From Ancylobacter polymorphus (GTDB lineage: Bacteria; Pseudomonadota; Alphaproteobacteria; Rhizobiales; Xanthobacteraceae): a stretch of DNA of 64,000 bases. Positions within the stretch are counted from its first letter, which is position 1. Each line of letters begins with the position of its first letter. The notes under the pieces are model-generated. The model worked only from the letters and a program-made list of their open reading frames with translations, was not told where the DNA came from and did not search any database. The stretch is from assembly GCF_022836935.1 (NCBI RefSeq), contig NZ_CP083239.1, positions 434,001-498,000 of the forward strand. Reading direction: 5' to 3'. Positions 13,011 to 57,049 of the stretch are shown here, piece by piece. The position numbers and the translations under genes are program-made.

Positions 13011-13031
13011 CATTTCAAGCGGCAAGCGCTC

Positions 13032-40487: not shown

Positions 40488-40563
40488 GCCCAGGTAGCTC
40501 AGTTGGTAGAGCATGCGACTGAAAATCGCAGTGTCGGCGGTTCGACTCCGTCCCTGGGCACCA
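40488..40563 (+). tRNA. tRNA-Phe (GAA anticodon), probable integration site
   Basis: GCCCAGG pairs with CCTGGGC. D arm AGCTCAGTTGGTAGAGC; anticodon stem TGCGA/TCGCA around CTGAAAA gives anticodon GAA; T arm with GGTTCGACTCC; CCA encoded. Length 76 nt. The integrase gene of the phage-like island ends 61 bp downstream, so the 3' half of this tRNA is the likely att core. Confidence 0.96.
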
Positions 40564-40624: not shown

Positions 40625-41707
40625 TCATATTTTCTGACCCGGTTTGACAGCCCTTGTTCTGCGGCTGTTCACTTCGTGGCCGAAGCGGCCGGCCACCTCA
40701 TCCATCTTTTTCGACAGGTCCGAGCCCTGCGCGTACATCTGCGCCATGGCCTCGGTCTTCTGCCCGAGCGCGTCGGCGATGGTGCGCAGGTCGGCCCCGC
40801 TCTCGCGCAGAATCGCCGCCACCGTGTGCCGCAGGCCGTAGAGCGTCAGCCCCTCGCCGATGGCGCCAGCCTTCTCCAGCGTGTGCTGCAGCTTCATCCA
40901 TGACGAGTTGAAGCCGGAGACGGTCCACGGCCGGCCGCGCGAGTTGGCGCACAGGGTGATGGCCGAATGCGCCGGCGCCGCCGCGAGAATGTCGCGCAGC
41001 GGGTCGATGACGGGCCAGATGACGCCTTCCTCGGTCTTCGACCTGCTGGTGTTGATCCGGCCGCCGGTATAGGCCGTGCGCGGCAGGGTGAGCGCATCCT
41101 TCGGCCCGAGCCCGGTAAACATCATCAAGGCCAGCGCCGGCAGCATATGCGCGGGAGCGGCATCGAGCACCGCGTGGCGCTCTTCATCGGTCCAGCGGCG
41201 ATTCTGCTTCGGCAGGCCCTTGGGGCGGCGAATGCTGCGGATGCCCTCCGCCGGGTTCTCCTTCACGTGGCCGCGCTCCTTGCCCCAGGCGAAGAGCAGG
41301 GACAGGACGGTCTTGAGATAGTTCGCGAACCAGCGCTTGTGCTTGGCCTCGGCCTTGTCACGCAGCTTCACCACGAAGGGCGGGGTGAAGCGCGTCAGCG
41401 GCGTATCTTCAATGGGCTTGAGATAGTCGAAGACACGCTGATAGCCGGCGCGCGTCGTGCGGGTCAGGCGCTCGAGGAAATCCTTGCTCCCACGGTACTC
41501 CTTGATGAGAGCCCCCAGCGTGCCGGGGCGGGTCGTGCTGGCACGGTCCTGCAGTGCCGTGATGCGGGCACACTCCGCCAGAAACGCAGCGGTGCCGATC
41601 GGGGCCTTCACAAGATCAACCGGCATACGGGAAGCGCGGTGATAGCACCGCATCTTCCCGTGCCGGTCCTTGAAGATCTGGAAGCCTTTGACGTGCACCA
41701 CGGTCAT
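40625..41707 (-). CDS. Tyrosine-type site-specific integrase
   Basis: 360 residues from ATG 41707. A SAM-like core-binding region (GTLGALIKEYRGSKDFLERL, about 65-150) is followed by the catalytic domain with LTLYGLRHTVAAILRESG (His-x-x-Arg region), ALGQKTEAMAQMYAQG and the nucleophile Tyr in that last motif. The place of the first Arg reads FTGLGPKDALTLPR, which differs from the common TGLRxxE box but is usual for this alphaproteobacterial phage-integrase subgroup. It lies next to tRNA-Phe, its probable target. The AlpA-like gene ends 2 bp before its start. Confidence 0.88.
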   Translation of the reverse strand: MTVVHVKGFQIFKDRHGKMRCYHRASRMPVDLVKAPIGTAAFLAECARITALQDRASTTRPGTLGALIKEYRGSKDFLERLTRTTRAGYQRVFDYLKPIEDTPLTRFTPPFVVKLRDKAEAKHKRWFANYLKTVLSLLFAWGKERGHVKENPAEGIRSIRRPKGLPKQNRRWTDEERHAVLDAAPAHMLPALALMMFTGLGPKDALTLPRTAYTGGRINTSRSKTEEGVIWPVIDPLRDILAAAPAHSAITLCANSRGRPWTVSGFNSSWMKLQHTLEKAGAIGEGLTLYGLRHTVAAILRESGADLRTIADALGQKTEAMAQMYAQGSDLSKKMDEVAGRFGHEVNSRRTRAVKPGQKI

Positions 41708-41709
41708 GG

Positions 41710-41946
41710 CTAGCCCAGCTTTTCGAGAATGGCGTCGTCGCTGTCGGCGGCGCCGGTCTTGAGGCTGTCCACCCACGAATCGAGGTCGCGCACGTCCCAC
41801 AGGCGCGAGCCGTCGGGATAGGCGACGGCCGGCACGGGGCAGAGCATCTCGAAGCGCGCCGCCGGCAGCCCACAATAGGCTGCCGCATCGGCCTTCTTGA
41901 GCATCCGGTAGGGCTGCACCTGAAGTGAGAGCATCGCCTTCGCCAT
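41710..41946 (-). CDS. AlpA-like/excisionase-like small HTH protein
   Basis: 78 residues from ATG 41946. LKKADAAAYCGLPAARFEMLCPVPAVAYPDGSRLWDVRDLDSWVDSL shows the MerR-like winged-helix of AlpA/excisionase proteins, with RLWDVRDLD as the wing. Directly upstream of the integrase and likely to control its expression or excision. Family membership is based on the motif layout only. Confidence 0.72.
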   Translation of the reverse strand: MAKAMLSLQVQPYRMLKKADAAAYCGLPAARFEMLCPVPAVAYPDGSRLWDVRDLDSWVDSLKTGAADSDDAILEKLG

Positions 41947-41948
41947 CG

Positions 41949-42164
41949 TCAGAGCCCTTTGCTGGTTGCGAGATAGACGGCCTTTGGCGCGGCGCGGGAG
42001 GCGTCGCGGATCTGGCGTTCGAGGTCGGCGATGGCGGCGGCGAACTCGGCATCGGTGCGATAGGTGATCTCGCGACCGTCGGAGAGGCGCACCCGGCTGG
42101 TGCCCTCCGCGCGCATGGCGCGGAGGGAGTCGAGACGCTCGTGCAGGGTGGAGAGGTCCGCCAT
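41949..42164 (-). CDS. Phage head-tail connector-like (gpW-type) protein
   Basis: 71 residues from ATG 42164, overlapping the capsid stop by one base. Start MADLSTLHERLDSLRAMRAEG, centre GREITYRTDAEFAAAIADLERQIR and the C-terminal ATSKGL agree with small head-tail joining proteins of the gpW type. These sit at the portal and are needed to attach tails. Gene order beside capsid and portal supports the call. Confidence 0.7.
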   Translation of the reverse strand: MADLSTLHERLDSLRAMRAEGTSRVRLSDGREITYRTDAEFAAAIADLERQIRDASRAAPKAVYLATSKGL

Positions 42165-44239
42165 CACGCGCCCTCGTTCTTGTAGAGGCCGCGGAAGTCG
42201 ATGACGCCGCAGCCGAAGTCGAGCCCGGCGGCGACCTTGACGGCGCGGGTGTCGAAGTCGATCTCGGTGCGGATCTGCGGCCCCTCGGCGCCGGAGACAT
42301 AGCCATAGACGAGGCTGGGGGCGGCGGCCGGGTCCGCCATGACGTACCAGCTGGTGCCGGTGATGTTGGCGTCGACCACCAGCTCCATCGTGCCCGCCCA
42401 CGGGTTCACATCGCCCGCCTTGGCGGCGGTGATGGCGGCAAGCACCTGGCGGGCGGCAAGCTCGGTGTCCGGCCCGACCACGAGGAAGCGGGGGGCAAGG
42501 TTGAGCGGCACGCCGTCGAGGCTCTTCTGCTTGCGCAGCGCGGCGACGGCGAGGCCGACCGAGGCGACCGAAAGAGCGGCGCCGGTGGTAGCCTTGTTGC
42601 CATGGTCGGCATGGAACAGCGCCTTGCCGTCGGAGAGGGCGGCGTTGGCGGCGAGCAGGCCGTAGACGCGGGCGTTCTCGTCGCTGGCGGCGCGGATGGC
42701 GATCATGGAGGAGAAGTCCGCCAGCGCCGAGAGGTCGTCATTGATGAGGGCGCGGCGGCCGATGGCGATGCCGGCATTCAGCTCCTTCGCCCGTACCTTC
42801 TCCCGGTTCTCGGAGAGGGTGCCGTATTTCAGCTCACCGCCCTCATTGGTCTCCTGGAAGGTCGGGAAGTCGCCGATGCGCAGGAAGGAATGGTCGCGAA
42901 AGTCGGTGAAGGACCGGCGGGCGGCGATGAGGCGATAGGTCGGCTCGGCGGCGGCGTAGTTGGCGAGCAGGGCCTTGTTGGCCGCGTCCGCCAGCAGCAG
43001 GGGGAAGTCGCTGGTGGAATGGGCGCCGACGGCGCGCTCCATCAGCGCGTTCTGGTCGCGCAAATTGAGGCGTTCGCCGCGCGCCTGGGCGAGGTCGCCG
43101 ATCATGTCCAGCATGCGGAAGCCGGCATAGGCGCGCGAGCGCCCTTCCAGCTTCACCCGGCCGGGAGCGAGGCGATGGGCGAGAGCCTCGCCCATGGCGG
43201 AGCGGATCGCCGCCGGGTCGGTGTGGTCGTGGGTGACGGTCGCCACGGTCGGGTGGAAGGTCTGCAGGGGCGCGCTGCGGGCCTGCATGGCGGCGAAGGC
43301 GGCGGCGCGGGCGGCGTCGGTGGTGGCGTTGGCGTCGATCTGGCTGTCGATCCAGCCCTGATCGAGGCCGGCGACATTGGCGATGGAACGGATCTCCATG
43401 TTGATCGCCGCCCGCTCTGCAGCGGCCGGCGGGTTGAGGGACGGCGCGGGGGCCGGGGTGGAATGAGCGGGCGCGGGCGCCGGCTCGGTGCTGACCGTCA
43501 TGTCGTGGCTCCTGATGCCTGCATGCGGGTCGGCGGGGACAACGACGAGGCTGGCCTCGATCAGGGTGAAGCGCTCGGCCACCTTCTCGCGGCGGCCGGT
43601 CTTGAGGTTGGTGCGCTCGGACCAGCGCTCGACGGCGTAGCCGATGGAGATGCCGAAGGTGGCACCGTCCGACAGCTCGGCGGCGATGCGCTGGGAGCGG
43701 GGATTGTGGCGGGAGAGCGTGGCGCGGCCGAGGAGGTCCCCGCCGACCACGCGCAGCGTGTCGACGCTCCCGAGCTGGCGGTCCACGCTCTCCCTTCCAT
43801 GGCTGTCGAGCAGGGGCACGCGGGCGGGCCAGGCCGGCTGCGACAGGAGGAGAATTTCGTCATAGGGGCCGCGCACGTCCCAGCGCTCGACAGCCGCGCC
43901 GGTGGAGAGCACCGCCTCGAAGGTCTGGCTCTCCGCATCCCAGCTGGAGGCGGGAAGCGTCGCGCGACGGGTGAGGATCTCGGCGGGGGCAGCGGAACGG
44001 GTTTCCACCTTGGCCGGGCGGGGCGGCGCCTCAAGGCAGATGCACTCGCCATTGCCGACGCCGACATAGGCCATGCCGTCCTCGTCGGCGATGGCGGCGA
44101 GGTGGTCCATGAAGGCGTCCATGGTGCAGCCGAGATGCTTCGGCATGTCGGCGGCCGGGGGCATCATGCCGCGCTGCATCGCGTCGTTCAGGTTGCGCAT
44201 GCGCGCATGGAACTCGGGGGTGTCGAAATAGCCGTTCAT
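42164..44239 (-). CDS. Prohead protease/major capsid protein fusion
   Basis: 691 residues. The first 250 form an HK97-type prohead protease: ILTRRATLPASSWDAESQTFEAVLS, the catalytic His in LLDSHGRESVD and Ser in LIEASLVVVPADP. A Pro/Ala linker (about 250-275, PAPAPAHSTPAPAPS) leads to a capsid part with FPLLLADAANKALLANYAA, FRDHSFLRIGDFPTFQETNEGG, IAIGRRALINDDL and FLVVGPDTELAARQVL, as in gpT-like capsid proteins. Cleavage should release mature capsid. Overlaps the portal gene by 4 bp. The fusion is known in alphaproteobacterial phages. Confidence 0.87.
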   Translation of the reverse strand: MNGYFDTPEFHARMRNLNDAMQRGMMPPAADMPKHLGCTMDAFMDHLAAIADEDGMAYVGVGNGECICLEAPPRPAKVETRSAAPAEILTRRATLPASSWDAESQTFEAVLSTGAAVERWDVRGPYDEILLLSQPAWPARVPLLDSHGRESVDRQLGSVDTLRVVGGDLLGRATLSRHNPRSQRIAAELSDGATFGISIGYAVERWSERTNLKTGRREKVAERFTLIEASLVVVPADPHAGIRSHDMTVSTEPAPAPAHSTPAPAPSLNPPAAAERAAINMEIRSIANVAGLDQGWIDSQIDANATTDAARAAAFAAMQARSAPLQTFHPTVATVTHDHTDPAAIRSAMGEALAHRLAPGRVKLEGRSRAYAGFRMLDMIGDLAQARGERLNLRDQNALMERAVGAHSTSDFPLLLADAANKALLANYAAAEPTYRLIAARRSFTDFRDHSFLRIGDFPTFQETNEGGELKYGTLSENREKVRAKELNAGIAIGRRALINDDLSALADFSSMIAIRAASDENARVYGLLAANAALSDGKALFHADHGNKATTGAALSVASVGLAVAALRKQKSLDGVPLNLAPRFLVVGPDTELAARQVLAAITAAKAGDVNPWAGTMELVVDANITGTSWYVMADPAAAPSLVYGYVSGAEGPQIRTEIDFDTRAVKVAAGLDFGCGVIDFRGLYKNEGA

Positions 44240-45618
44240 GCCACGGTCTCCTCGATGGGCGCCGGAGCGGCGGCAGGCTTGGCCTTGGCCGGCGCGGTGA
44301 AGGTCAGGCCGAGGCTCGCCTCGCGGGCCTTGTCGGCGGCGATCTCGGCATCGAGCGCGCCGAGATCCATGCCGCGCGCGGCAACCGCCTCGCGGCGGCT
44401 CATCAGCCCGGCATTGATCGCCTCGATCTCCGCCTGCACATCCTTCGCCGGGTCCACCCATTGCTGCTTCGGGGTTATCCAGCGCACCGGGAGCAGCTCC
44501 TGCGGGCGGGCGGCAAGCCGGCCCTGCAGGCTCTCGATCATCGCCCAGCGGCGCCAGATGGGGCGCAGCGCCTGGAAGACGATGACATTGTGCTGGATCA
44601 TCTCCACCCGGCGGCGCCACTCGACGAGGCCGGCGCGGATCGAGGAATAGTTGACGCTGGAGAGGTCGCCGGTCAGCACCTCATAGGGCAGGCCGAGCGC
44701 GGCGGCGATCTCGTGGAGGGTGATGCGGGCGAAGTCGTTGGCCTCCTGCGCGATGGCGGGGGGCGTGGTGGTGCGAACGTCCTGCCCCGGCAGCAGCGGC
44801 AACAGTGTGCCCGGCTCCATGCCGGCGATGAGGGCGCCCTGCGACACCTCGCCCCCGAAGGGCATCGATCCATCAGGGGTGACAATGAAGCCGGTCAGCA
44901 GCGCCCCGACCTTCTGGCGCACCAGCTGGGCGCCGTGCCACTCGTCATGTTCGGCCAGCCGCAGGATGGCCGGGGCGAACCACGAGACGCCGCGCACCTG
45001 GCCGGGGAAGTCGGGGCGGAACAGATGCACCACGTCCTCGGCCGGCACGCGCACCGGCTGAAGGTTGAGGCCGAGGCCGATCTCCGGGCGCTCCTTGACG
45101 ATCCAGTAGGCGACGCGGGAGCCGAACCTGTCGAACTCGACGCCGTTGACGATGCGCCCGCCCTGGGGGAGCGGGCGGGTGAGCGAGGCGTCCAGCTGGT
45201 CGGGATCGAGCACACGGATGCGCAGGCCTGCCGGGGTGGCGATCAGCAGCGCCAGCGCTTCGCCATCCACCACCATGCCGCCAACCATCAGGGCGGTGAG
45301 GCCATAGAAGTCCATCAGGCCGTCGGCGTCCGCCTCGTCCGTCCACGCCGTCCAGCGCGCAGCCAGCGTGCCCGTCACCGCCGGGACGATGCCGGTGCCG
45401 ACGAGGCTGCTGACATGCGCCGCCTTCCCGGCCGCCGCGTGTGGGTTGTTGGCGACGAGATAGCGGGCGCGGTAGGAGAGCGGGGCGCGGGCCTTCTGCG
45501 CCGCGCCGTGCTGGTTGGCCGTCTTGCCCCAGCCCGTCGCACGGCGGCCCGTCGCCGCGCCCTCATAGGAACGCGAGCGCAGCCGGTTCATAAGGCGGGA
45601 GAGCGCGGCCGGGAACAT
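44236..45618 (-). CDS. Phage portal protein, lambda family
   Basis: 460 residues of the lambda-type portal family: RARYLVANNPHAAAGKAAHVSSLVGTG, a central LDPDQLDASLTRPLPQGGRIVNGVEFDRFGSRVAYWI, and LPYEVLTGDLSSVNYSSIRAGLVEWRR. It forms the dodecameric ring through which DNA enters the head. Its start overlaps the upstream gene's stop, and its stop overlaps the protease/capsid start, so the head genes are one transcript. Full length, so intact. Confidence 0.92.
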   Translation of the reverse strand: MFPAALSRLMNRLRSRSYEGAATGRRATGWGKTANQHGAAQKARAPLSYRARYLVANNPHAAAGKAAHVSSLVGTGIVPAVTGTLAARWTAWTDEADADGLMDFYGLTALMVGGMVVDGEALALLIATPAGLRIRVLDPDQLDASLTRPLPQGGRIVNGVEFDRFGSRVAYWIVKERPEIGLGLNLQPVRVPAEDVVHLFRPDFPGQVRGVSWFAPAILRLAEHDEWHGAQLVRQKVGALLTGFIVTPDGSMPFGGEVSQGALIAGMEPGTLLPLLPGQDVRTTTPPAIAQEANDFARITLHEIAAALGLPYEVLTGDLSSVNYSSIRAGLVEWRRRVEMIQHNVIVFQALRPIWRRWAMIESLQGRLAARPQELLPVRWITPKQQWVDPAKDVQAEIEAINAGLMSRREAVAARGMDLGALDAEIAADKAREASLGLTFTAPAKAKPAAAPAPIEETVA

Positions 45619-46531: not shown

Positions 46532-46920
46532 GGCCGCACCTCCCGACTGGCCGGCGCGGGCATCAGCAGCCGAGCGTCGCGCACCTTCACGTCCGCCACC
46601 ACGATGGCGAGCACGCTCTCGTCGAACCAGTCGCGCTCGACCACGTGCTCGCCATAATGCTTGTTGTCGGAATAGAGCAGCAGGTGCCCCTTCCTGCCGC
46701 CGAGCGTGCTGGAGGCGCGTGTGAGCTTTACGCCGCCGAAAGGGTCGCTCATGAGATAGATGCCCTCGCCCTCATAGCTTGTGCAGGGGCGCACCAGCAC
46801 ATGGTCCCACCGGCTGCGGAGCGTCGGCTCCATGGTGTCGCTGGGCACCATCTCCAGCCGAAGCTGGGGCGAGAGCAGCGCCGTCGCCGGCACCGCCTGT
46901 CCGAACAGGTCGCCGCTCAT
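46528..46920 (-). CDS. S24/LexA-like peptidase-fold protein
   Basis: 130 residues from ATG 46920, which overlaps the stop of the upstream gene by 4 bp. LRLEMVPSDTMEPTLRSRWDHVLVRPCTSYEGEGIYLMSD resembles the peptidase domain of LexA/cI-like regulators (S24), with Ser in PSDTMEPT and a mid KLTRAS region where a Lys would stand. There is no HTH. It may be a stand-alone regulator or modifier of phage repression. Family placement is moderate. Confidence 0.6.
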   Translation of the reverse strand: MSGDLFGQAVPATALLSPQLRLEMVPSDTMEPTLRSRWDHVLVRPCTSYEGEGIYLMSDPFGGVKLTRASSTLGGRKGHLLLYSDNKHYGEHVVERDWFDESVLAIVVADVKVRDARLLMPAPASREVRP

Positions 46921-47333
46921 GTCCGCCCCTCCGGCTGGGAGGCGCGGGGCTTGCGCCACAGGTCGATGGGTTCGGCGATCTCGTCGAGGATGCCGCCGCG
47001 TTGAAAGCGCGGATCAGCCCGCCACTCATAGGTCAGGCGGCTGGCATGGACCCACGCCTCGGCCGGCCGGCCATGCGCGGCCCGCCGGGCGCCGGCACCC
47101 TCCAGCATCCACCCATCGCCCGGCGCCGCCAGCTCATCCATAGCGGCGGCAAAGGCCAGCCACGCCGCGCGGGGGCGCTGCAGCGGATCGATGGGGGCCG
47201 GTGCGGCAAGGCTTGGCGCGGGCATCGCCAGAGCCAGAACGCCCGTCGGCACGGTCACAAGCGCCGCACCAAGGCAAAGCGCCTGGCGCCGGCTGGGAAC
47301 AAGGCTCTCCCGTTCGCGAACATGGCTGTCCAT
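46917..47333 (-). CDS. Hypothetical protein with TAT-like signal
   Basis: 138 residues starting MDSHVRERESLVPSRRQALC, with SRRQALCLGAALVTVPTGVLALAM, which resembles a twin-arginine signal. The rest shows no known domain (AWLAFAAAMDELAAPGDGWML). First gene of a three-gene ATGA-coupled row. Its first 39 bp recur at 48405-48443, possibly a duplicated leader. Unknown function. Confidence 0.55.
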   Translation of the reverse strand: MDSHVRERESLVPSRRQALCLGAALVTVPTGVLALAMPAPSLAAPAPIDPLQRPRAAWLAFAAAMDELAAPGDGWMLEGAGARRAAHGRPAEAWVHASRLTYEWRADPRFQRGGILDEIAEPIDLWRKPRASQPEGRT

Positions 47334-47344
47334 GCGCGTGCTCC
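47306..47344. repeat. 39-bp direct repeat, copy 1
   Basis: The segment starts tctcccgttcgcg and ends catggctgtccatgcgcgtg plus ctcc. It matches 48405-48443 except for AA against GG in the middle (37/39). It covers the start codon and first 9 codons of the gene at 46917-47333. Confidence 0.75.
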
Positions 47345-47378
47345 AATCAGGTTCGAAGGGGGAAATGACGTGGTGGCG

Positions 47379-47549
47379 CTAGGCCGGCGTCACGGCCGAA
47401 GAGCGCTGGCGATCCATGCGCTCGCGAATGGAACGGACGATTTCCGAGTTCTGCGACGAGCCGTTGCGGGTCGCCTCATGCTCGATGAAAGCCTTGAAAT
47501 CCGGGGGAAGCCGAAGCATCAGCTTTGGCCAGTCGCGCTGCCCGCTCAT
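47379..47549 (-). CDS. Arc-family DNA-binding repressor
   Basis: 56 residues from ATG 47549, with GGAG six bases upstream. LMLRLPPDFKAFIEHEATRNGSSQNSEIVRSIRERM is a ribbon-helix-helix domain of the Arc/MetJ group: a beta strand of alternating residues, then two helices. It is divergent from a second Arc-family gene at 47652, with three operator-like repeats between, as in a lysis/lysogeny switch. Confidence 0.82.
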   Translation of the reverse strand: MSGQRDWPKLMLRLPPDFKAFIEHEATRNGSSQNSEIVRSIRERMDRQRSSAVTPA

Positions 47550-47566
47550 TGCGAACTCCATACTGC

Positions 47567-47635
47567 CAACTTGGCATCATAGGAACCGAAGGAAGGATTG
47601 ATGTCAACTAGGCATCATTCCAAATTAGCATCATT
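47567..47635. promoter_or_regulatory. Three operator-like direct repeats, CAACTwGGCATCAT
   Basis: Copies at 47567-47580 (caacttggcatcat), 47605-47619 (caactaggcatcatt) and 47621-47635 (caaattagcatcatt) lie between two divergent Arc-family genes. Spacing of 38 and 16 bp suggests cooperative binding of ribbon-helix-helix dimers. Confidence 0.78.
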
Positions 47636-47651
47636 CGAGTAGGCTGCGGAT

Positions 47652-48008
47652 ATGAGTGAGAAATCCTACCCCAGCCAAAGTCAGGACCGCTTTATCGTTC
47701 GCTTGCCGGACGGGATGCGCGAGCGCATCGCCGAGGAGGCGAGGAAGAACAACCGTTCGATGAACGCCGAGATTGTTTCGAGACTGGAGCAAACCTTTAA
47801 TCTCGTCTCAGCCGCACCGCTCTCCAAGGGAATAAAGAACCTCTCTAGCAACATTAAGATGTTAGCTATGGAGGCCATTGTTATTTCAAATTACGCTTCT
47901 TCGCTTGAGCAATATCTCGATGTTGTTGACCCCGGCGGCCCGCGTCCGCCGCGCCCTAGCTTCGATGAGGCGGCCTTAGAAAGCGGTTCAGACGGTGACA
48001 ACGGGTAG
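47652..48008 (+). CDS. Arc-family DNA-binding protein, longer paralogue
   Basis: 118 residues. The N-terminal ribbon-helix-helix region ([39 protein letters not shown], about 10-50) is followed by a helical extension and a Pro-rich tail ([16 protein letters not shown]). Same family as 47379 but twice as long. The two divergent proteins probably compete for, or share, the repeats at 47567-47635 and so set the island's expression state. Confidence 0.8.
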
Positions 48009-48404
48009 TCCGCCATTGGCGGCGCTTGGTTGGTAGCTGCCGGCGGCAGTTGGCCGGCAGGCTCGATGACGAAGGGGCGTGGCGCGCTCCGCGCTGCCCA
48101 GGAATCCCAGCGCGGGCCGGCCGGCCGCGCCACGCCCCTCCGGGCCGGGGCCTCAGCTGATGGCGGGTGCAGTGCCCTCCGGCGCGCTGGCCAAGACCAT
48201 CAGCGCGCGGAGGCCAGAGGCGCCCATCCGCCGGTGCGAGGCTCCGGCCGGTGGCGGGCGGGGTAGGTTCCACACCGAGCAGGAAAGCCAGCGCGCCTTG
48301 ACGGGCGCGCGGCCCCGGATGCCCGGCGTGCGCTTATCCGAACGCACCCCGCCCATCCGGTTAGGAGCCCTCAGCCGCAACGCTGCCGGGCCGCGTGACG
48401 CACT

Positions 48405-48443
48405 TCTCCCGTTCGCGGGCATGGCTGTCCATGCGCGTGCTCC
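48405..48443. repeat. 39-bp direct repeat, copy 2
   Basis: Near-identical to 47306-47344 (37/39). The copy keeps the same MDSH-R-RE start in minus orientation, then the frame stops after 23 codons. It points to partial duplication within the island's regulatory part. Confidence 0.75.
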
Positions 48444-48460
48444 TGTGGTAATGCTGATTT

Positions 48461-48470
48461 CAGTGCACTG
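48461..48470. promoter_or_regulatory. Palindrome CAGTGCACTG before the XRE gene
   Basis: A perfect 10-bp palindrome, with related half-sites CAGTGCAG (about 48480), CAGTACG (about 48492) and ATTGTACTGAT (about 48517). The cluster lies 15-70 bp before the small HTH gene and could be its own operator. Confidence 0.45.
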
Positions 48471-48525
48471 TCCTGATAGCAGTGCAGATGCCAGTACGTC
48501 AACAGGATTTCAGGACATTGTACTG

Positions 48526-48750
48526 ATGATTGCCGTTCAGTGCCGTATGGCCCGCGCCGCCTTAGGTTGGGGCGTGCGCGACTTGGCCAGGGAGGCTAGC
48601 GTCTCGATCGATACGATCACCCGCCTTGAGAAGGGCGAGGCGCTTCTGCCCCGGACGGTCGAGGCGATCCAGCGGGCACTAGAAGAGGCCGGCGTCATTT
48701 TTGTGGACGAGAATGGGGAAGGCCCCGGCGTGAGACTCAAGAAGCGGTAA
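48526..48750 (+). CDS. Small XRE-like HTH regulator
   Basis: 74 residues. QCRMARAALGWGVRDLAREASVSIDTITRLEKGEALLPRTVEAIQRALEEAGVIFVDENGEGPGVRLKKR is a complete minimal XRE/Cro HTH with the typical C-terminal GVIF..ENGEGPGVR strand seen in phage and chromosomal alphaproteobacterial regulators. An ATG at 48526 fixes a normal length; frames upstream are GC artefacts. Probable regulator of the nearby small genes or of the defence-like cargo. Confidence 0.78.
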   Translation: MIAVQCRMARAALGWGVRDLAREASVSIDTITRLEKGEALLPRTVEAIQRALEEAGVIFVDENGEGPGVRLKKR

Positions 48751-48778
48751 GCTCTGACTCTGATCGAGGAGACGCAAG

Positions 48779-48988
48779 ATGAGCAACACAATCGATGACT
48801 TGAAGGTCCTACGCGACCAACTTGTAGAAAGGCGCCGTGATGAGGCCTACATGGTCGGCAATTCCCATCATGACGAGCGGATTGAAAAGCTCGTGCGCGT
48901 ACATCTCGCTATCGCCGCGCTTGATGCTGTAATCGTCGAAGGCAAGGATGGCCCACCGCCGCGTGAGCCGCGTATTCTCGTCCTATGA
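48779..48988 (+). CDS. Small hypothetical protein
   Basis: 69 residues. GAGGAGACGCAAG before ATG 48779 is a good Shine-Dalgarno. The sequence is helical and charged (MSNTIDDLKVLRDQLVERRR, then RIEKLVRVHLAIAALDAVI). Follows the XRE gene by 28 bp, probably in the same transcript. No known domain. Confidence 0.6.
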   Translation: MSNTIDDLKVLRDQLVERRRDEAYMVGNSHHDERIEKLVRVHLAIAALDAVIVEGKDGPPPREPRILVL

Positions 48989-49053
48989 GCCCGTTATGAT
49001 TGGCCGAAACTGACCGCCTTCAGCGAGAGACACTCCAAATCCAGGGGCTTCAC

Positions 49054-49338
49054 ATGGCAATCGATCAAGGCATGTTTGACGTATTTACAGTGAAAGATGC
49101 GGAAGGCAGGCCCGGTATAAAAGCGTATGTTCAGCTCAAAAAATCGAGTGTTCCAAAGGGTTTTTCCCTTAAAGGTGACCTTATCTGTTTGACGGCTGAT
49201 GCGGTAAGCGAGTCTGAATTCAGTATGCATGTCGACGAGTTGATTGATCAACTTACAAAACTAAAGCCTAAAGCGGCGGCTTGTTTTCGGCGGGAAAGAG
49301 AACAACGGCGACGTGGCGAATTGAGCCCGTCCAGATAG
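49054..49338 (+). CDS. Small hypothetical protein
   Basis: 94 residues from ATG 49054 (CCAGGGG upstream). FDVFTVKDAEGRPGIKAYVQLKKSSVPKGFSLKGDLICL suggests a beta-rich fold, then a helical part and a basic tail (REREQRRRGE). Base composition is less GC-rich than the phage head genes, as in the reverse-transcriptase region. No function is apparent. Confidence 0.5.
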   Translation: MAIDQGMFDVFTVKDAEGRPGIKAYVQLKKSSVPKGFSLKGDLICLTADAVSESEFSMHVDELIDQLTKLKPKAAACFRREREQRRRGELSPSR

Positions 49339-49583
49339 CTCACTGACAAATTTCTGCTCGACCATATTCGTCGCCGCGATCTGTGAAGGCCGGGGGTGGT
49401 TGAGGAATTCTACGCGAGAATCAAACGTCTGATATGAGGTGCTGGACTGCGCCGGGAGCGGACAATTGCTGAGCGTCCGACCGCAGACGTTCCGCTTCGC
49501 CCCCATACCAGTCATTGCAGCGGCCTCGATCTCACCCCACAATCGGACGGCTTGCGGGTCTACGCCCCCCCCTGTAACTCAGC
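49339..49583. other. Region beyond the reverse-transcriptase gene, possible ncRNA site
   Basis: No supported gene. The stretch is bordered by the RT stop codon on the minus strand. Some defence reverse transcriptases use a non-coding RNA template encoded beside the RT gene, so this 245-bp gap and the gap at 51258-51485 are the places to look. No clear strong hairpin was found here by eye. Confidence 0.3.
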
Positions 49584-51257
49584 CTAATAGCCGTCGTCCT
49601 CGTCGTAATCATTGTCATCGTCGAGCTCATCCAATTCGAACGTGAAGTCGTCAAGGAAATCGTCGCGGACCCGCTTGAGACGAACATTGTCACCGCGCAG
49701 AGAGCGCAGAGTAGTGTCGATCGACGTGAACCCGGTAGTGATCGAGAGGAACCGGATCTTCCTAGCTTGTAGCGGCGCAAAATAAGGGTCCGCCTCGATG
49801 AACGCTGTTGAGGGCGCTGGATTGATGCCGAGGCACACGCTCTCATAGGCGTACAGCCACATGCCACTGCGGAGACCTTCGCCGGAAAGCGCGCTATTCC
49901 ATCTGGTGAAGTCGATCGGGCCCCCTACGAGCCGAAGACTGACACACAATGCAGTCAGCAAGGCTACCAACGCGTTATCGATCGCGGTGAGGGGTTCAAC
50001 ACTCGACGCTGAAAGCGGGATTCGCAAGCGGGCAGCAAGAAACAAAAACCAGACAATCTCACCGGTCCGGTTCTCTCGGGCGAGTGCTGGCAGGCGATGT
50101 TCAAGGAATTCGGCCAGCTTTGGCAATTCGACGTCGTTGCGCTCGGCTTGGCGCAGCAGTGTGATCTCAACGAGAAACGCGACCAAGCTCGCGTTGCGCC
50201 GGTAGGCCGCGATTAGATGGCTCTGAATCTTGGCCCAACTGGCCGCCCGCACGAATGCTGCGCGCGCATTCTGGAAGGCATATTTCTCAACGTTGATGTC
50301 GGGATGTGCATCGCAGATCCGACCCACGCGATAAAAAAATTGTTGAAATTCCGCGTCACTACTTGGACCGCCGGGCACATAAGATCGCACTTCCTGCTTC
50401 CAGCCGTTATCGTGCCTAATTGAAGTTGAAATGATTGCCGACTTGTCGCTGTTTAACTCAAGTTCGTACTGCGCGGCAGCTTGGCGAAGAGCTGCGATAA
50501 GGTCTTTTCCTGAGTGATTGGCACCACTACTAATTGTATAGTCATCGATATATCGCGAAGCGTCACGTGGTCCGATTCTAACCTTTTCACGCAGAGCAAC
50601 GTCAATCGCGGATGCGACAACTTCGGCGATTAGGCGTGAGCAGTCGGGACCCACCGGCAAGCCGATGGTCTGGCCGTCCTGCGCATTGCGGCACAACAGG
50701 TCGATAAGATTGCCAAAATGCTCCACACCGCGATTAAGTTTGGCGAACGCTTTGCCGTGAATCGCCCAGGGAATTGCGTGTGTGTAGATCGAATGAAAAA
50801 AGGCGCGAATGTCGGCGCCTACGAATTCCTCACGCCTCGATGATAGGTCCACGCGAAAGTCATCGCGAAGATCGACGCTCGGCCGAACTAAGGCGCGCGG
50901 ACCATTCCAGTCAAAGATCGGCGGCGACGAGGAGATTCGTGAATTCTTAGCTGCCGCCCTGATTTTCATGTAATTGTCGGCTATAGCCCGCGATAAAAGC
51001 AAATAGGCAATAGGATTCGGGACACCATGGCGGCGGTCGTCCTTCCCGAATCGGGGAAAATAGAACCAGCTTGGCTCAGAAATATAGCGGTGGAATGCTG
51101 GCTTACCCTTTACCAGTGGCATTGCGTCGATACTGTCAAGGATTGATTTTCGATATTTCGCTAGATCGTGTGAAACAAAGCACGGTGGCAGCTCCGGGGC
51201 GAAATATCCGTGTGACAGAAGGCGTCGAAGTCGTTCGGATTTTGTCTTTGCTGTCAT
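49584..51257 (-). CDS. Reverse transcriptase, defence-type (DRT/Abi-like)
   Basis: 557 residues from ATG 51257 (a longer frame to 51320 is possible). The RT palm carries Asp149 in VGADIRAFFHSIYTHAIPWAIHG, the region GLPVGPDCSRLIAEVVAS, and the catalytic YIDD at about 236-239 in SRYIDDYTIS. The part after the palm (about 330-510) is helical and unassigned, and the tail is acidic (ELDELDDDNDYDEDDGY). It lacks intron-maturase and retron features (no msr/msd seen, no VTG motif noticed). The group with SIYTHxIPW and Y-x-DD contains bacterial UG/DRT antiphage enzymes. It stands divergent to a large ABC ATPase, which suggests a two-gene defence module. Confidence 0.85.
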   Translation of the reverse strand: MTAKTKSERLRRLLSHGYFAPELPPCFVSHDLAKYRKSILDSIDAMPLVKGKPAFHRYISEPSWFYFPRFGKDDRRHGVPNPIAYLLLSRAIADNYMKIRAAAKNSRISSSPPIFDWNGPRALVRPSVDLRDDFRVDLSSRREEFVGADIRAFFHSIYTHAIPWAIHGKAFAKLNRGVEHFGNLIDLLCRNAQDGQTIGLPVGPDCSRLIAEVVASAIDVALREKVRIGPRDASRYIDDYTISSGANHSGKDLIAALRQAAAQYELELNSDKSAIISTSIRHDNGWKQEVRSYVPGGPSSDAEFQQFFYRVGRICDAHPDINVEKYAFQNARAAFVRAASWAKIQSHLIAAYRRNASLVAFLVEITLLRQAERNDVELPKLAEFLEHRLPALARENRTGEIVWFLFLAARLRIPLSASSVEPLTAIDNALVALLTALCVSLRLVGGPIDFTRWNSALSGEGLRSGMWLYAYESVCLGINPAPSTAFIEADPYFAPLQARKIRFLSITTGFTSIDTTLRSLRGDNVRLKRVRDDFLDDFTFELDELDDDNDYDEDDGY

Positions 51258-51485
51258 CGCCCTCAGCCTTTCGGCACGCAGTAACGGTCGCAAAGTCTGG
51301 AGGACCATGCCACTCTGCAATACCTACGCCATCGGCGCCTACTGGGAAAGCCGAATTGCATGCACATCGGCTATCCGCATCTCGGTGCGATCTGCCTCAT
51401 GGCTGCCTGTCCAGCAGCCGCTTAAGTTAGGCGCCGCTGGACAAGACCGCAGTATATCGTAAGCTCCCATAAAGGGTAGCGTTCA
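51258..51485. promoter_or_regulatory. Divergent promoter region of RT and ATPase with inverted repeat
   Basis: The 228-bp gap serves both genes. It holds an 8-bp inverted repeat TGTCCAGC (51408-51415) / GCTGGACA (51436-51443) around 20 bp, and AAAGGG before the GTG start of the ATPase. The hairpin could be a regulator site or part of a small RNA. Confidence 0.45.
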
Positions 51486-53756
51486 GTGCTGACACGTATA
51501 GATCAACTTAAGAACATCGGGCGCTTCACGTCCTTTAAGCAGCGCGCCGACGCGCTGGGACAAGTGGCGTTGGTCTTCGCCAGGAACGGCTATGGCAAGA
51601 CCACCATTTGCGCCGTGCTTCGGTCTGCCTCAACGCAGGACTCCGCGCCGATCGGCGAGCGTCTGCACTTGGGCAACGCGGGCCTACCCGAGGCGGCCCT
51701 TAACTTTGATCCGACCGGGGGTGTCGTGTTCCAGAATGGGAGCTGGAACCGAACCCCGCCGAGCATCCTTATCTTCGACGGCGAATTCATCCGCCGGAAT
51801 GTCCACACGGCCGACGAGGTCACGCGCGACAACAAGCGCCAGCTACTCCGGGTAATCGTCGGGGCGACGGGTGTCCGCCTCGCCGAAACCGTCACCGACA
51901 TTGATGCGAAGAACACCCAGCTCAACACTGAGCTGAGGGACCTGGAACGCGCGATCCGTACCGCCCATCCCTCAATCTCGGACTATTCGGGTTTCGCCAA
52001 CGCCGCCATCCCGGACGACATCCAGCTTCGGATCGACGAGCGCCGCCGTCGCTTGTTGGCCGCCCAACGTGCGAACGACGTTCGCACTCGACAGAACATT
52101 ACGCTTTGGCGACAACTGCCCGATCTAGATAGGGTGATTGACCTTTTAACCGATGTCCTTGATGGCGCCAGCGACGCCGCCGAGCGCCGCATTGCCGATC
52201 ATATGGCCAAGCACGGGTTCGACTCTGGTGGACGGCGATGGCTGGCCTATGGTGCCCAACGCGCTAGAAATACTTGCCCGTATTGCGATCAGGATCTCGG
52301 GCCCTCGACGATTGCGGCGGAAATCAAATTTCTTTTCGGTGAGGCCTACACCACCCTGACCGCGTCTATAGACGCCCAGCTGTCGATCCTCGATGGCCTC
52401 CTCACCGCCGGTAAGGTGGGCAGCATCCGCGCTGTCGCCGAGGCGAACCGGGTGGCCTTGGATTTCTGGCGCCAAGTCGGCGATCTGCCGGTTCTGGATG
52501 AACTCCACGACACTGATATCGAGCGACTCGAGGCGGCGCTGCAACCCGTCATGACAGCGCTAGAGCGCAAAGCAGCAGCGCCGTTGACGCCGATCCAGCT
52601 CGACGCCGATCTGGTCCGCGCCGCCCGGGAAGCAATTAGCATTGCCGAGATCTACGCTGGGCAGGTCTTGGCTTGCAATCACGCCATTGAGGTTGTTCGC
52701 ACGGAAAACGCCGCTGAACTCACGGCGAGCCAGATGCGGGAACTCCAGGAAGCGGTCGACAAGCGCTTGGCGCTCCAAGCTAAGGCTCAGGACCCGTTGA
52801 AGACCCTGTGCGAGCGCTGGAAGTCCATAACTGACGAGCGAGCGGCGCTGGCAAGTAACCGCAGCACGGCGCAAAGGGCTTTGACGGCACATGTGGAGGC
52901 GACAGCGACTGCCTATGAGGCAGGAATCAACGAGTTGCTCGAAGCGTTTGGGGCTAACTTCCGGCTCTGCCAGACCAAGGCCAGCTACGTCGGTCGTGAT
53001 CCGAACACGGAATACTGCATTGACGTCAACGGTCACGTGCTGAAGGCGGGGGAGTCTGGGGCTGCCTCCAAGCCGAGTTTTCGCACCGTCCTCAGCGCCG
53101 GCGACAAGTCAAGTTTGGCTCTTGCCCTCTTCGTCACCCAAGTGAAACAGCGCGCCGACCTCGGTGACTGCATCGTAGTCTTCGACGACCCATTCAACAG
53201 CCAAGATACTGCGCGTCAATTCGAGACTGCCTCCCAAATCCGCCTCATTGCCGCCCATGCGCGCCAAGTCGTGGTTCTGTCCCATGATCCGCGCTTCCTT
53301 CACCTGATCGAGAAAGATAAGGGCACATTGGTCGTCACACAGCATCAAATCGTCGCCGAAAGCGACTGGGTAGCCAGCCTCAAGATTTGGAACGTCGAAG
53401 ACGAGGTCAAAGCTGACTACGTCCGACGCGCCGAGCGCATCCGCGCCTACGCCTCCACTGGTGTGCATCTGACCGGCTGCAACGGCCCGCTCTTGGCCAG
53501 TGATATCCGTATCTTTGTCGAGGAATACATTGACCTTCGTTTCCCGGGGCGTTTTGCCCCCCGCACACTTCTCGGCGCCATGGTCGATGCAATTGATGCC
53601 GCAGGGCCGAACGACGATCTCCATATCCATCGGAACGACCTCCGCGCCCTGAACGAGTTTAGTCGGCCAGAACATCACCGCGGGACAACGTCCCCAGATC
53701 CCACGCAGCTGCGTGCCCAGTGTAAGAAGGTAGTGAAAATCATCGGGATGTACTGA
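51486..53756 (+). CDS. Large ABC/Rad50-like ATPase with CxxC (RloC/AAA_13-like)
   Basis: 756 residues from GTG 51486. Walker A is ARNGYGKTT (32-40), the ABC signature LSAGDKS is at 536-542, Walker B IVVFDDPF at 563-570 and H-loop His600 in VVVLSHD. Between them lie long helical, coiled-coil-like segments (140-240, 350-480) with CPYCDQD (C264, C267), like the zinc hook or CxxC of Rad50/RloC proteins. The C-terminus contains ALNEFSRPEHHRG, a possible effector site. RloC/PrrC-type ATPases act as anticodon nucleases against phage, and PARIS/Septu-type ATPases also look like this. Its stop codon directly abuts the stop of the terminase fragment. Confidence 0.82.
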   Translation: MLTRIDQLKNIGRFTSFKQRADALGQVALVFARNGYGKTTICAVLRSASTQDSAPIGERLHLGNAGLPEAALNFDPTGGVVFQNGSWNRTPPSILIFDGEFIRRNVHTADEVTRDNKRQLLRVIVGATGVRLAETVTDIDAKNTQLNTELRDLERAIRTAHPSISDYSGFANAAIPDDIQLRIDERRRRLLAAQRANDVRTRQNITLWRQLPDLDRVIDLLTDVLDGASDAAERRIADHMAKHGFDSGGRRWLAYGAQRARNTCPYCDQDLGPSTIAAEIKFLFGEAYTTLTASIDAQLSILDGLLTAGKVGSIRAVAEANRVALDFWRQVGDLPVLDELHDTDIERLEAALQPVMTALERKAAAPLTPIQLDADLVRAAREAISIAEIYAGQVLACNHAIEVVRTENAAELTASQMRELQEAVDKRLALQAKAQDPLKTLCERWKSITDERAALASNRSTAQRALTAHVEATATAYEAGINELLEAFGANFRLCQTKASYVGRDPNTEYCIDVNGHVLKAGESGAASKPSFRTVLSAGDKSSLALALFVTQVKQRADLGDCIVVFDDPFNSQDTARQFETASQIRLIAAHARQVVVLSHDPRFLHLIEKDKGTLVVTQHQIVAESDWVASLKIWNVEDEVKADYVRRAERIRAYASTGVHLTGCNGPLLASDIRIFVEEYIDLRFPGRFAPRTLLGAMVDAIDAAGPNDDLHIHRNDLRALNEFSRPEHHRGTTSPDPTQLRAQCKKVVKIIGMY

Positions 53757-54040
53757 TCACCCCACCCAGCTTGACCGCACCACGGCCGGTGCCCGGCGCG
53801 GCGCTTCGCCGGCGACTTCCGGCGCCGCAGCGCCGGCCCGCACCTCCGCCGCCTCCACCTTGCCCACCATCTCCGCCAGGCTCATGCCGGCGGCATAGAG
53901 CCCGTGCAGCGCCGCCGTGGCGTAGACGCGGCAGTCGAGCGGCTCGTTGCGCACGCCAGGGTCGGGCACCCATTCGATGCGGGCGACGCCGCGCGTGTAG
54001 CGGCGCACGGGGCGCTCCGCGACGAGGCCGGTGAACCAGA
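53757..54040 (-). pseudogene. Large terminase subunit, C-terminal fragment
   Basis: The minus-strand frame, cut by the IS21 end at 54040, reads LWFTGLVAERPVRRYTRGVARIEWVPD and then VRNEPLDCRVYATAALHGLYAAGM, the C-terminal nuclease end typical of GpA-family large terminases. Only about 94 residues remain out of about 600. The rest is not found beyond the IS, so the packaging motor of the island is lost. Its stop touches the ATPase stop with no base between. Confidence 0.8.
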
Positions 54041-54112
54041 GTGTTGATTTCCGTTGAGAAGTGACCCTGGATTTCCAGTGAGAAGTGACCCGGGCTGATG
54101 GTGGTCTTGGGG

Positions 54113-54907
54113 TTAGGTTGCGGTCAAGTTTCGCGGCTTCTCCCTGGTGGGTTTGGGTGGCTTTGCCGAGCTGCTCTTGAAGCGGAAGCTGTCATTGCCG
54201 GTCTCGAGGATATGGCAGTGATGGGTGAGCCGGTCGAGCAGGGCCGTGGTCATCTTGGCATCGCCGAAGACGGCAGCCCATTCGGAGAAGCTGAGATTGG
54301 TGGTGATGATCACGCTGGTGCGCTCATAGAGCTTGCTCAGCAGGTGGAACAGCAAGGCGCCGCCCGAGGTGCTGAACGGCAGGTAGCCGAGCTCGTCGAG
54401 GATGACGAGGTCGGCATGGAGGAGCCGACCGGCGATCTGACCCGCTTTGCCTTGGGCCTTCTCCTGTTCGAGAGCGTTGACGAGCTCGACGGTAGAGAAG
54501 AAGCGGACCCGCCTGTGATGATGCTCGACGGCGTGGACGCCGAGAGCCGTGGCGATGTGGGTCTTGCCGGTACCGGGACCACCGATCAGGACGACGTTGT
54601 GCGCGTCGTCGAGGAACTCGCAGCGATGGAGTTGGCGCACGAGCGCCTCATTGACCTCGCTGCTGGTGAAGTCGAAGCCGGCGAGGTCGCGATAGGCCGG
54701 GAAGCGGGCGGCCTTGAGCTGATAGGCGGTCGAGCGCACCTCCCGCTCGGCGGTCTCTGCCTTCAGGAGCTGTGAGAGGATCGGCATGGCGGTCTCGAAG
54801 GCGGGAGACCCCTGTTCGATGAGTTCGGCAGCGGCTTGCGCCATGCCGTGCATCTTGAGGCTTCTCAGCATAATGACGAGGGCTCCGCTGGCCGGATCAT
54901 GACGCAT
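54113..54907 (-). CDS. istB: IS21-family helper ATPase IstB
   Basis: 264 residues from ATG 54907. AAA+ core with Walker [15 protein letters not shown], Walker [14 protein letters not shown] and [16 protein letters not shown]. IstB assists the IstA transposase in target choice and strand transfer. Overlaps istA by 11 bp. Complete, so the IS may be active. Confidence 0.92.
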
Positions 54908-56426
54908 GGCGCGCCTCCCTGGCCCTGCGGAGGGCGTCATAGCGTTCGACATTGGCTTGAGGCTCGGTGGTCAGCGTAAGGGCGCCAGGAGCTGGGATCG
55001 TCGGCGTGCTCAGCGGTGTACCGTCGATCAGGCGGTGCAGCAGATTGAGGATGTGGGTCTTGGTCGGCACGCCTGCTTGCAGCGCGAGTTCGACGGCCGT
55101 GAGCACGACCTGCTCGTCATGCTGGAGGACCAGGGACAGGATCTCCACCATCTCGCGGTCACCGCCCGGCCGCTTGAGCAGATGCTGCTGCAAGGATCGG
55201 AACGCCGGCGGCATCTCGGCGAACGGTGCGCCGTTGCGCAATGCGCCGGGCTTGCGCTGGACCACGGCCAGATAATGCCGCCAGTCATAGACGGTCCGGC
55301 TCTGGCGATCATGGGAGCGAGCGAACACCCGACCATGCTCACAGATGGCCTGTCCCTCAGCGACCACAACGATCCGGTCGGGATAGACACGCAAGCTCAC
55401 CGGGCGGTTGGCGAAGGAGGCCGGCACGCTGTAGCGATTGCGCTCGAGGTGGACGAGGCAGGTCGGGGAAACGCGCTTGGCGTGTTCGACGAAGCCGTCG
55501 AACGGCCGCGGCATCGGCATCAGGTGGCGGATCTCCTCAGCCCACACATCGGCGATCGAGCCGGGTTGCGAGCCGTGCCCGGCCTGCGACCACAGCTCCC
55601 GGCACCGGGTCTCGAGCCACTCGTTCAAGGCCTCCAGCGAGGGGACGTTCGGTATGGGTTGCCAGAGCCGATGACGGGCATCCTGTACGTTCTTCTCGAT
55701 CTGCCCCTTCTCCCAGCCGGAGGCCGGGTTGCAGAACTCCGCCTCGAACAGGAAGTGGCTGACCATGGCCGAGAAGCGGATGTTGACCTGGCGCTCCTTG
55801 CCCCGGCCGACCTTGTCGACGGCCGTTCGCATGTTGTCGTAAATCCCCCGCCGCGGCACGCCGCCCAGTACCCGGAAGGCGTGGTTATGGGCGTCGAACA
55901 GCATCTCGTGGGTCTGCTGCGGGTAGGCTCGCAGAGTGAAGGCGCGGCTGTAGGACAGCTTGACGTGAGCGACCTGCAGCTTGGTGCGCTCGCCGGCGAT
56001 GATCGCCCAGTCCTCAGACCAGTCGAACTGGAACGCCTCTCCGGGCACAAAGGCCAGCGGCACGAAGGTGCCGCGGCCGCTGGTCTGCTGCTCGCGCAAC
56101 CGGGCGGCCTTCCAGTCGCGGGCAAAGGCCGCCACCCGATTGTAGGAGCCCTCATAGCCCAACGTCACGAGATCGGCGTGCAACTGCTTGACGGTGCGCT
56201 TGTGCTTGCGCGACTTGCCGCTCTCCACCCGCAGCATCGCCGCGAGCTTGTCGGCATAGGGATCGAGCTTGCTCGGCCGGTCCGGAACGTGAAACCGGGG
56301 TTCGACGCTGTCCGCTCGCAGGTACTTACGCACGGTGTTCCGTGAGAGCCCGGTGCGGCGGGATATCTCCCGGATCGAGCTACGATCCCTATGATGCCAG
56401 CGTCGGATGACGCTCAATAACTCCAT
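54897..56426 (-). CDS. istA: IS21-family transposase IstA
   Basis: 509 residues from ATG 56426 ([36 protein letters not shown], an N-terminal HTH). DDE core: Asp in [12 protein letters not shown], Asp in [12 protein letters not shown] and Glu in [14 protein letters not shown]. The C-terminal beta and helical parts are present. A longer frame to 56486 has no support. Normal length for the family. Confidence 0.93.
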
Positions 56427-56540
56427 GTCGATCACTCCGCTGTCCCCCGCGTGTGCCGCGTGAGACGTGGTGAAAACATGGGTCACTTCTCGATGGAAAA
56501 ATCCGCTCCTGCAGGGTCAGATCTCAGTGGAAATCAACAC

Positions 56541-56640
56541 CCGGCGGCGCACCCAGCCCTCCGCCGTGACCAAGGCCGGAAACTCCAGCCTCCGGCGGTC
56601 CAGAAAATGGTCTCGGATCAATCAACCCTCGGTCTCTCTC
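56541..56640. other. Mosaic junction next to the IS21 right end
   Basis: 100 bp that do not match the terminase fragment on the other side of the IS. Read on the minus strand one frame gives LEFPALVTAEGWVRRR, of unknown origin. The GntR fragment loses similarity at about 56668, so this piece came from elsewhere. Confidence 0.4.
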
Positions 56641-56787
56641 CTAAGCCGGAAGAGCAAAGGGTCTCAGGTCAGACACGCTGAACAGATCCGCGAGTTGCTG
56701 CTCGCCGAGCCGCGTACCGGGCTCGATGCGACCTGCGAGGATCGCGGAAAGGATCGCGTCCTCGATATTGGGCGGGGGTAGGCTCAT
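56641..56787 (-). pseudogene. GntR-family regulator, N-terminus only
   Basis: From ATG 56787 the frame reads MSLPPPNIEDAILSAILAGR, then IEPGTRLGEQQLADLFSVS, the first half of a GntR winged helix. At the expected SRTxVREAL recognition part it changes to DLRPFALPA and stops at 56641. Family members have about 220 residues, so about 80 percent is gone. The cut point near 56668 marks a recombination edge of the island. The upstream palindrome at 56802 probably was its operator. Confidence 0.78.
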
Positions 56788-57049
56788 AAGGCTTGCTCAC
56801 CAGCTGGTATACAAGCTGCCAAGCAAGCGCCGTGCCGACTTCACGCCGAAGCCGAAAAGCATCGCAGAGATGAGGTCAGCCCCGTCACGGCGCGCGGGGG
56901 CGCAGGATAAGGCGGCTCTGTTGGGCGTTGCCGGCCAAGGGGGGCCGACAAACGGACATCGGCGAGTGGGCCCCACGGCGCCTCCTGGCCAGGTGCTGAC
57001 CTTCAACCTCCCGTCAGGAGCGCCGAAACGGACGCCCCCAGCAACCCGT
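56788..57049. other. Gap between GntR fragment and efflux operon
   Basis: 262 bp without a supported gene. It holds the palindrome at 56802-56817 and GC-rich short repeats. Being downstream of the outer-membrane factor gene, it may hold its terminator; I see no clear hairpin with T tract. Confidence 0.4.
56802..56817. promoter_or_regulatory. GntR-type operator palindrome AGCTGGTATACAAGCT
   Basis: A 16-bp palindrome with one mismatched pair and a central GTATAC, as bound by FCD-type GntR proteins. It lies 15 bp before the truncated GntR gene, an autoregulatory site now orphaned. Confidence 0.55.

Follow-up and report, generated by a model that had tools for sequence, protein, structure and literature searches.

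Among the defence-associated reverse transcriptases (RTs), DRT6 is presented in a 2026 review as a single-gene system that is activated by the phage protein ORF55, and its product chemistry is described as less resolved than that of DRT4 (PMC13213688); a second review gives the same account of DRT6 (PMC13314766). RloC and PrrC carry a C-terminal pattern, Arg-x3-Glu-x36-52-His, and a response of RloC to DNA damage has been proposed (PMC2610378). The nuclease domains of both proteins are classed as HEPN. A gene of the DRT6 type and one that looks RloC-like lie side by side in Ancylobacter polymorphus, in a stretch of 64,000 nucleotides (contig NZ_CP083239.1, positions 434,001 to 498,000) that is termed the window here. 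An RT gene and a gene for an ABC ATPase face away from each other inside a phage-derived element, and they are probably two separate, complete defence genes, carried as cargo by a satellite-like element that encodes a capsid, in a slot whose contents are exchangeable. The locus is a caution that neighbours in a cargo slot need not be partners.

The reverse transcriptase and its C-terminal tail

The RT open reading frame occupies positions 49584–51320 of the minus strand when read from a TTG start (578 residues). Judged from an alignment of relatives, the start is the ATG at 51257, which gives a protein of 557 residues. By sequence and by predicted structure this is a DRT6/UG12-type enzyme. The top PADLOC model is Drt6 (PDLC03748), with an E-value of 4.6e-154 and 512.1 bits over profile positions 2–497 of 511. 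DRT4 (UG15) is the next best by profile and by fold, but its PADLOC model (E 5.9e-100, 333.5 bits) scores ∼180 bits below Drt6. The Pfam RVT_1 profile is matched at 34 bits, the cut-off being 29.6. The YIDD motif is found at residue 236 and SIYTHAIPWA at residue 156, and Y236, D238 and D239 are invariant among 16 aligned RT sequences.

The top sequence match in the PDB is 9wy8 (E 7e-50). An AlphaFold2 model of the RT, with a mean predicted local distance difference test score of 69.5 and low confidence in portions of the RT domain and in the tail, has as its first-ranked fold match 9wy8_A, 'hexameric DRT6' (E 8.9e-22, TM 0.75/0.83), followed by DRT4/UG15, AbiK and Abi-P2. The window RT shares with DRT6 the top hidden Markov model (HMM), sequence and fold matches, the YIDD motif, a helical C-terminal domain and its existence as a single gene; the 9wy8 alignment likewise shows an acidic stretch at the C-terminus. 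The window RT differs in that its identity to 9wy8 over the fold alignment is 24%, and in belonging to a close clade (alphaproteobacterial as far as records are named) in which every intact member has tyrosine as its last residue. A retron RT was considered and rejected, as the PADLOC retron models fall far under Drt6. Nine phage records match the RT, none with 80% query coverage. A copy in Paramagnetospirillum kuznetsovii (locus L025, 10001–11611) has a premature stop and is apparently broken.

All 18 intact close RTs, that of the window and 17 others with 54–79% identity, some of which are near-identical, have tyrosine as their last residue; L025, a fragment (L027) and duplicate records of the window RT were left out of this count. 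The C-terminus that carries the residue is variable in length and sequence among these relatives and is rich in Asp and Glu. Priming from the C-terminus has precedents: Y666 of DRT3b, in a tail that ends at residue 667 (PMC13174585), Y496/Y498 in the tail of DRT9 (PMC12483538), and the last residue of DRT10, S456, or Y444 in a relative (PMC12632851). AbiK uses an internal Tyr44 instead (PMC9508834). On the strength of the terminal tyrosine in the close RTs and of the DRT3b, DRT9 and DRT10 precedents, Tyr557 is proposed to prime DNA synthesis by the RT, a suggestion that on balance we favour. A terminal tyrosine of DRT6 is not mentioned in the available text of the DRT6/UG12 literature found, a set whose scope does not extend to the main DRT4 and DRT6 papers.

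We infer that the RT would act as a homo-oligomer that synthesizes DNA without an RNA template, and that the chain would begin on its own Tyr557, brought to the YIDD site by the flexible acidic tail. Upon phage infection DNA might then accumulate and phage growth might be halted, by analogy with what has been reported for the related DRT4.

Distant relatives limit how far the priming proposal may extend. Among RTs that align over most of the protein with 24–29% identity, tyrosine is present in the last four residues of L071 and L072 (which are alike), L054, L074 and L055 (the same gene as L075). Weighing against the proposal are the distant DRT4/DRT6-like RTs L052, L053 and L056, as well as L076, which has a stop in frame; none has a tyrosine in its last four residues, and terminal-tyrosine priming therefore may not hold family-wide. 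Of the RTs that are alike only in the RT core, L057, L058, L061 and L079 end in tyrosine, L059 and L078 have one in the last two residues before the end, and L060 (the same gene as L077) has none near the end. Core-only RTs thus also tend to carry a near-terminal tyrosine, which is therefore not a DRT6 speciality. An invariant final tyrosine on a variable acidic tail would provide a one-residue handle on how DRT6 enzymes begin DNA.

The surroundings of the RT were compared at 18 close loci, consisting of four of the six best plasmid matches (8 kb flanks) and 14 confirmed genome-contig loci (flanks of up to 10 kb, shortened by contig ends in some, e.g. L019, L024, L026 and L027). The number of independent loci is below 18, since the four plasmid loci are closely alike and so are L022 and L024. 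All counts of relatives given here are lower bounds, since they depend on how sensitive BLAST and the HMMs are and on the length of the flanks. Neighbouring gene families recur in subsets only of the 18 loci. What mainly recurs across hosts, at five loci, is an OLD/TOPRIM-type ATPase gene together with one for a helicase; at these loci, on rhizobial plasmids and in Novosphingobium (L007–L010, L016), they directly adjoin the RT. The two genes are presumably Gabija-like, an assignment taken from annotation.

At the DNA level, similarity between window positions 46000–57000 and 19 RT loci (the 18 and L070) is limited to the RT gene, besides IS21-region matches in L026 and L019, and hence no conserved noncoding RNA or partner is seen to travel with the RT. 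An associated noncoding RNA was rejected on the basis of this lack of conserved DNA outside the RT reading frame, IS21 matches aside, together with an Rfam scan of 46000–57000 that gave no match. An obligate DRT6 partner was likewise rejected, recurrent neighbours across hosts being limited to the ATPase and helicase at five of the 18 loci. The RT is a gene that behaves as self-sufficient. A search of plasmids for near-identical DNA gave none.

The ATPase

The divergent gene encodes a protein that looks like an RloC-like sensor-toxin and predicted tRNA cutter. Its motifs occur in the order Walker A (from residue 35), CPYC (264), LSAGDKS (536), Walker B (563), H-loop (596) and EHH (729). The protein matches Pfam AAA_13 (E 1.9e-26) and, over residues 1–694, the PADLOC candidate PDC-S06 (PDLC04895; E 5.5e-65). 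PDC-S06 is a candidate family label only, and the available text of PMC11514479 merely tabulates it by name. C264 and C267 are invariant among nine ATPase sequences, and long predicted helices flank the CPYC motif. R675, E679 and H731, which have the spacing R-x3-E-x51-H, are invariant among 12 sequences, and residues 660–756 are predicted to be helical. An earlier note on this DNA had placed the effector site at EFSRPEHH. His731 of that stretch is indeed invariant, but the stretch is just one corner of the R675/E679/H731 triad.

The window ATPase resembles RloC and PrrC in its ABC motifs and C-terminal triad and resembles RloC in its CxxC hook, a likeness of layout and motif. It differs from RloC in having a histidine before the catalytic histidine, where RloC often has serine. 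During infection, by this resemblance, the Rad50-like ABC head and the CxxC hook would sense DNA ends or DNA damage, and the ATPase would then free a C-terminal HEPN-type RNase, formed by R675, E679 and H731, which may cut tRNA. Two results weigh against this assignment: the match of the ATPase to the PrrC model of PADLOC is weak (E 0.01), and fold searches with the whole ATPase returned no HEPN protein, their matches covering residues 1–642, short of the C-terminal domain. None of the 21 PADLOC models that match the ATPase is named RloC.

The head fold matches SMC, Rad50, RecF and RecN, as would be expected if the protein were a DNA-repair or SMC/RecN-like housekeeping protein and not a toxin. 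That the ATPase is such a protein appears very unlikely. The gene is sporadic in distribution: of 385 genomes of the class, 23 (the window's among them) have a match at E 1e-3, and in only eight besides the window's is it near full length. Of 60 other genomes sampled from relatives, 57 lack a match, and the sole match within the genus is split in two pieces. The invariant R-x3-E and histidine beyond the ABC head, and the cargo setting, also argue against a housekeeping role. No phage record matches the ATPase, and four pattern matches in IMG/VR were found, none of which was confirmed. Broken relatives are present in a congener, G017 (L003/L006/L111), and on a Methylobacterium plasmid (L011).

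Relationship between the two genes

The earlier note had described an RT and a 756-residue ABC ATPase, divergently oriented and with the motifs named above, as defence-type cargo of mobile elements in a phage-derived setting, and it had called the ATPase RloC-like. The reading frames and motifs are present as described. The setting is borne out by the integrase, capsid/protease, portal and terminase genes, the PADLOC matches and the slot agree with defence cargo, and 'RloC-like' is right with respect to layout and motif. The central proposal was that the two genes act jointly as a new module, one that would fall if homologues were rarely neighbours or if either gene alone matched a complete known system. 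Both were found to be largely the case. The RT alone matches DRT6, a known system described as single-gene (PMC13213688), and the homologues are not neighbours.

No relative of the ATPase is found near the RT at any of the 18 close RT loci (tblastn, E 1e-3), and no related RT is found near the ATPase at any of 13 ATPase loci, whose reading frames were compared; the 13 include three broken or partial copies (L011, L111 and L112). Besides the ATPase, no gene family occurs in more than three of the 13. Nor did a motif search around the 18 RT loci reveal a Rad50/RloC-type ATPase; it gave just two ABC proteins, of 367 and 382 residues. Within the 385 genomes the RT is matched in 17, the window genome being in this count as in that of the ATPase. 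Both genes are matched only in the window genome and in G285, where the matches are weak and ∼340 kb apart; strong matches to both are confined to the window's own genome. A conserved RT–ATPase module was rejected on the basis of this lack of adjacency in both sets of loci.

A single two-gene system, in which DNA made by the RT upon infection is sensed by the Rad50-like ATPase, which then fires its RNase, is nevertheless suggested by several features. The genes are adjacent and diverge from a 228-base spacer, RloC is proposed to be responsive to DNA damage (PMC2610378), and some RTs do pair with an effector, as DRT8 does with RTasPDDEXK in the corresponding slot of a congener, G018. Such a system is highly improbable. 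Neither gene adjoins the other elsewhere in the loci examined, no ATPase or spacer DNA accompanies the RT at the 19 loci compared, DRT6 is described as single-gene, and the G+C contents are unequal, 0.542 for the RT and 0.604 for the ATPase, compared with 0.707 for the capsid gene and 0.715 for the portal gene. Adjacency needs no functional link, because the slot carries other defence-type genes in relatives. Common regulation from the shared spacer is possible, and this is a point against treating the two genes as wholly separate.

There is also a very faint prospect that the two genes now form one circuit in the window, in which protein-primed DRT6 DNA would be the ligand of the hook ATPase and would switch on tRNA cleavage. 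If so, the circuit would couple an RT-made alarm DNA to an anticodon nuclease.

The cargo slot and its host element

The Drt6 gene and the RloC-like gene are the window's version of an exchangeable defence slot, bounded by portal-side genes and by the terminase large subunit gene (terL). Of 30 genomes compared within the genus, 15 encode a relative of the portal protein, the window genome being one. Ten portal regions were taken and the seven with good flank matches (L128–L134) were used; the slot count omits L137, a weaker relative, as well as L135 and L136, which run into contig ends. On the capsid-portal side, identity to the window is ∼73–93% in all seven. The terL end is common to six of the seven, from window position 53757 or 53846 and in the same order; L129 is without a terL-side match. 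The resolved set is made up of seven congeneric relatives (L128, L130–L134 and the tRNA-Phe copy of G018, L141/L142) plus the window.

The content of the slot differs among these elements. L128 has a SIR2_2-NACHT gene, of which PADLOC covers the SIR2 part only (E 1.6e-9), L131 has Dsr2 (E 5.5e-129), and L132 a type IIG restriction-modification (R-M) gene with a Fic-like gene. L133 encodes a Dsr1-like protein (E 2e-83, best over residues 1–356 of 1265), L134 has AbiJ/Abi_C with PDC-M07A/B, and L141 (G018) has DRT8 (E 1.8e-150) and its RTasPDDEXK partner (E 5.7e-70). In L130 (G023) there are MauJ and AbiJ_NTD4 domain proteins, found with Pfam only and without a PADLOC match. Slot genes with a PADLOC match are therefore present in six of the seven relatives, and the seventh has a Pfam AbiJ domain. 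The scans covered a part of the relatives' slot reading frames, which is a point against taking these inventories as full.

The defence hotspots of P2 and P4 are a known parallel (PMC9122126). In both cases defence genes turn over rapidly within a small slot flanked by two conserved phage genes, but here the slot extends from terL to the portal-side genes of a capsid-encoding element. Coordinates of the slot, its two genes and the surrounding element are collected in the table.

Features of the window, with positions numbered from its first nucleotide
Feature	Position	Strand	Evidence or comment
Cargo slot of the window element, approximate limits	48732..53756	.	Ends of DNA matches to related elements
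DRT6/UG12-type reverse transcriptase, 557 residues (TTG at 51320 = alternative start)	49584..51257	-	PADLOC PDLC03748; PDB 9wy8 by sequence and fold; alignment for start
RT acidic C-terminal tail: last 22 residues, 13 Asp/Glu, ending in Tyr557 (proposed primer)	49587..49652	-	
Spacer between the divergent genes, 228 bases	51258..51485	.	Open reading frame positions
RloC-like ABC ATPase, 756 residues	51486..53756	+	PADLOC PDC-S06; Pfam AAA_13
CPYC, zinc-hook-like CxxC motif, residues 264–267	52275..52286	+	
R675-x3-E679, predicted nuclease triad	53508..53522	+	
EHH including His731, predicted nuclease triad	53670..53678	+	
tRNA-Phe, integration site; same site used by the related element in congener G018	40488..40563	+	
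Integrase	40625..42052	-	
Fused head maturation protease/major capsid protein	42164..44620	-	
Portal protein	44236..45618	-	
Terminase large subunit C-terminal remnant, right slot edge	53757..54008	-	Pfam GpA_nuclease, PHROG 15; DNA matches to 53757/53846–54041 in relatives
IS21-family element cutting terL (istB 54113–54952, istA 54897–56486)	54041..56540	.	

The host element looks like a capsid-encoding, apparently tail-less satellite, a reading based on the fact that no tail gene was recognised among the element proteins scanned, a set that takes in some of the small reading frames. Capsid-forming phage-inducible chromosomal islands (cfPICIs) are not known to have tails. The window-type element likewise has an integrase and head and packaging genes and no recognised tail genes, a likeness of gene content and not one drawn from comparison with a named cfPICI sequence; capsid-forming PICIs are named in PMC11389934. 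Among the literature matches listed, nothing relevant was found on cfPICIs or defence hotspots in alphaproteobacteria.

Alternatively, the element might be a degraded full prophage. This would fit with the presence of head genes, with the truncation of the window copy and with some small reading frames lying outside the scan. The copies in two congeners make this unlikely. In G018 the far end is given by a match of 54 columns (94%) to the end of the tRNA, which delimits an element of ∼16.7 kb, if the contig, which is spanned end to end, is circular. It encodes an integrase, capsid/protease, portal, slot, terL, terS and primase, the last two named via homologues in L134 and L130, and no tail gene was recognised in it. 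The copy in G019 lies in tRNA-Leu; a 15-base repeat gives it a length of ∼13.7 kb, and it stops shortly beyond terL, without even terS and primase.

The far end of the window element was not found; elsewhere in the window the end of tRNA-Phe has no copy of at least 14 bases. DNA common to the window and to the congener G008 resumes at 56672. Because IS21 has cut terL and no such copy is present, the element is probably no longer mobile. The same two observations would suit one or both defence genes being decaying passengers of a broken element. It is very improbable that they are, since both reading frames are full length, keep their catalytic motifs and have no internal stop.

These data add a family of small capsid-encoding elements in which a slot between terL and portal swaps DRT6, DRT8, DSR1-like, DSR2, R-M, AbiJ-type, SIR2-NACHT and RloC-like genes. 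The slot is a good hunting ground for undiscovered defence genes. Candidates for new defence genes are those for the MauJ (L130:8742–10130) and AbiJ_NTD4 (12248–13288) proteins. Reading frames with no PADLOC or above-cut-off Pfam match are found in the DRT8 slot (L141:10310–10906 and 11005–12012) and in the DSR1-like slot (L133:10788–12344). In the window itself, a reading frame of 112 residues at 49000–49338 (plus strand) lies inside the slot and adjoins the RT, and has no Pfam, PADLOC or NCBIfam match.

A repeat of ∼40 bases is found at the portal-side slot edge of the window (47306–47344 and 48405–48443). It is also present in L128 (7019–7064), L129 (14344–14389), L130 (14114–14167), L132 (14975–15019), L134 (5182–5507) and L141 (12518–12981). 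Perhaps the repeat could seed the recombination by which cargo is swapped.

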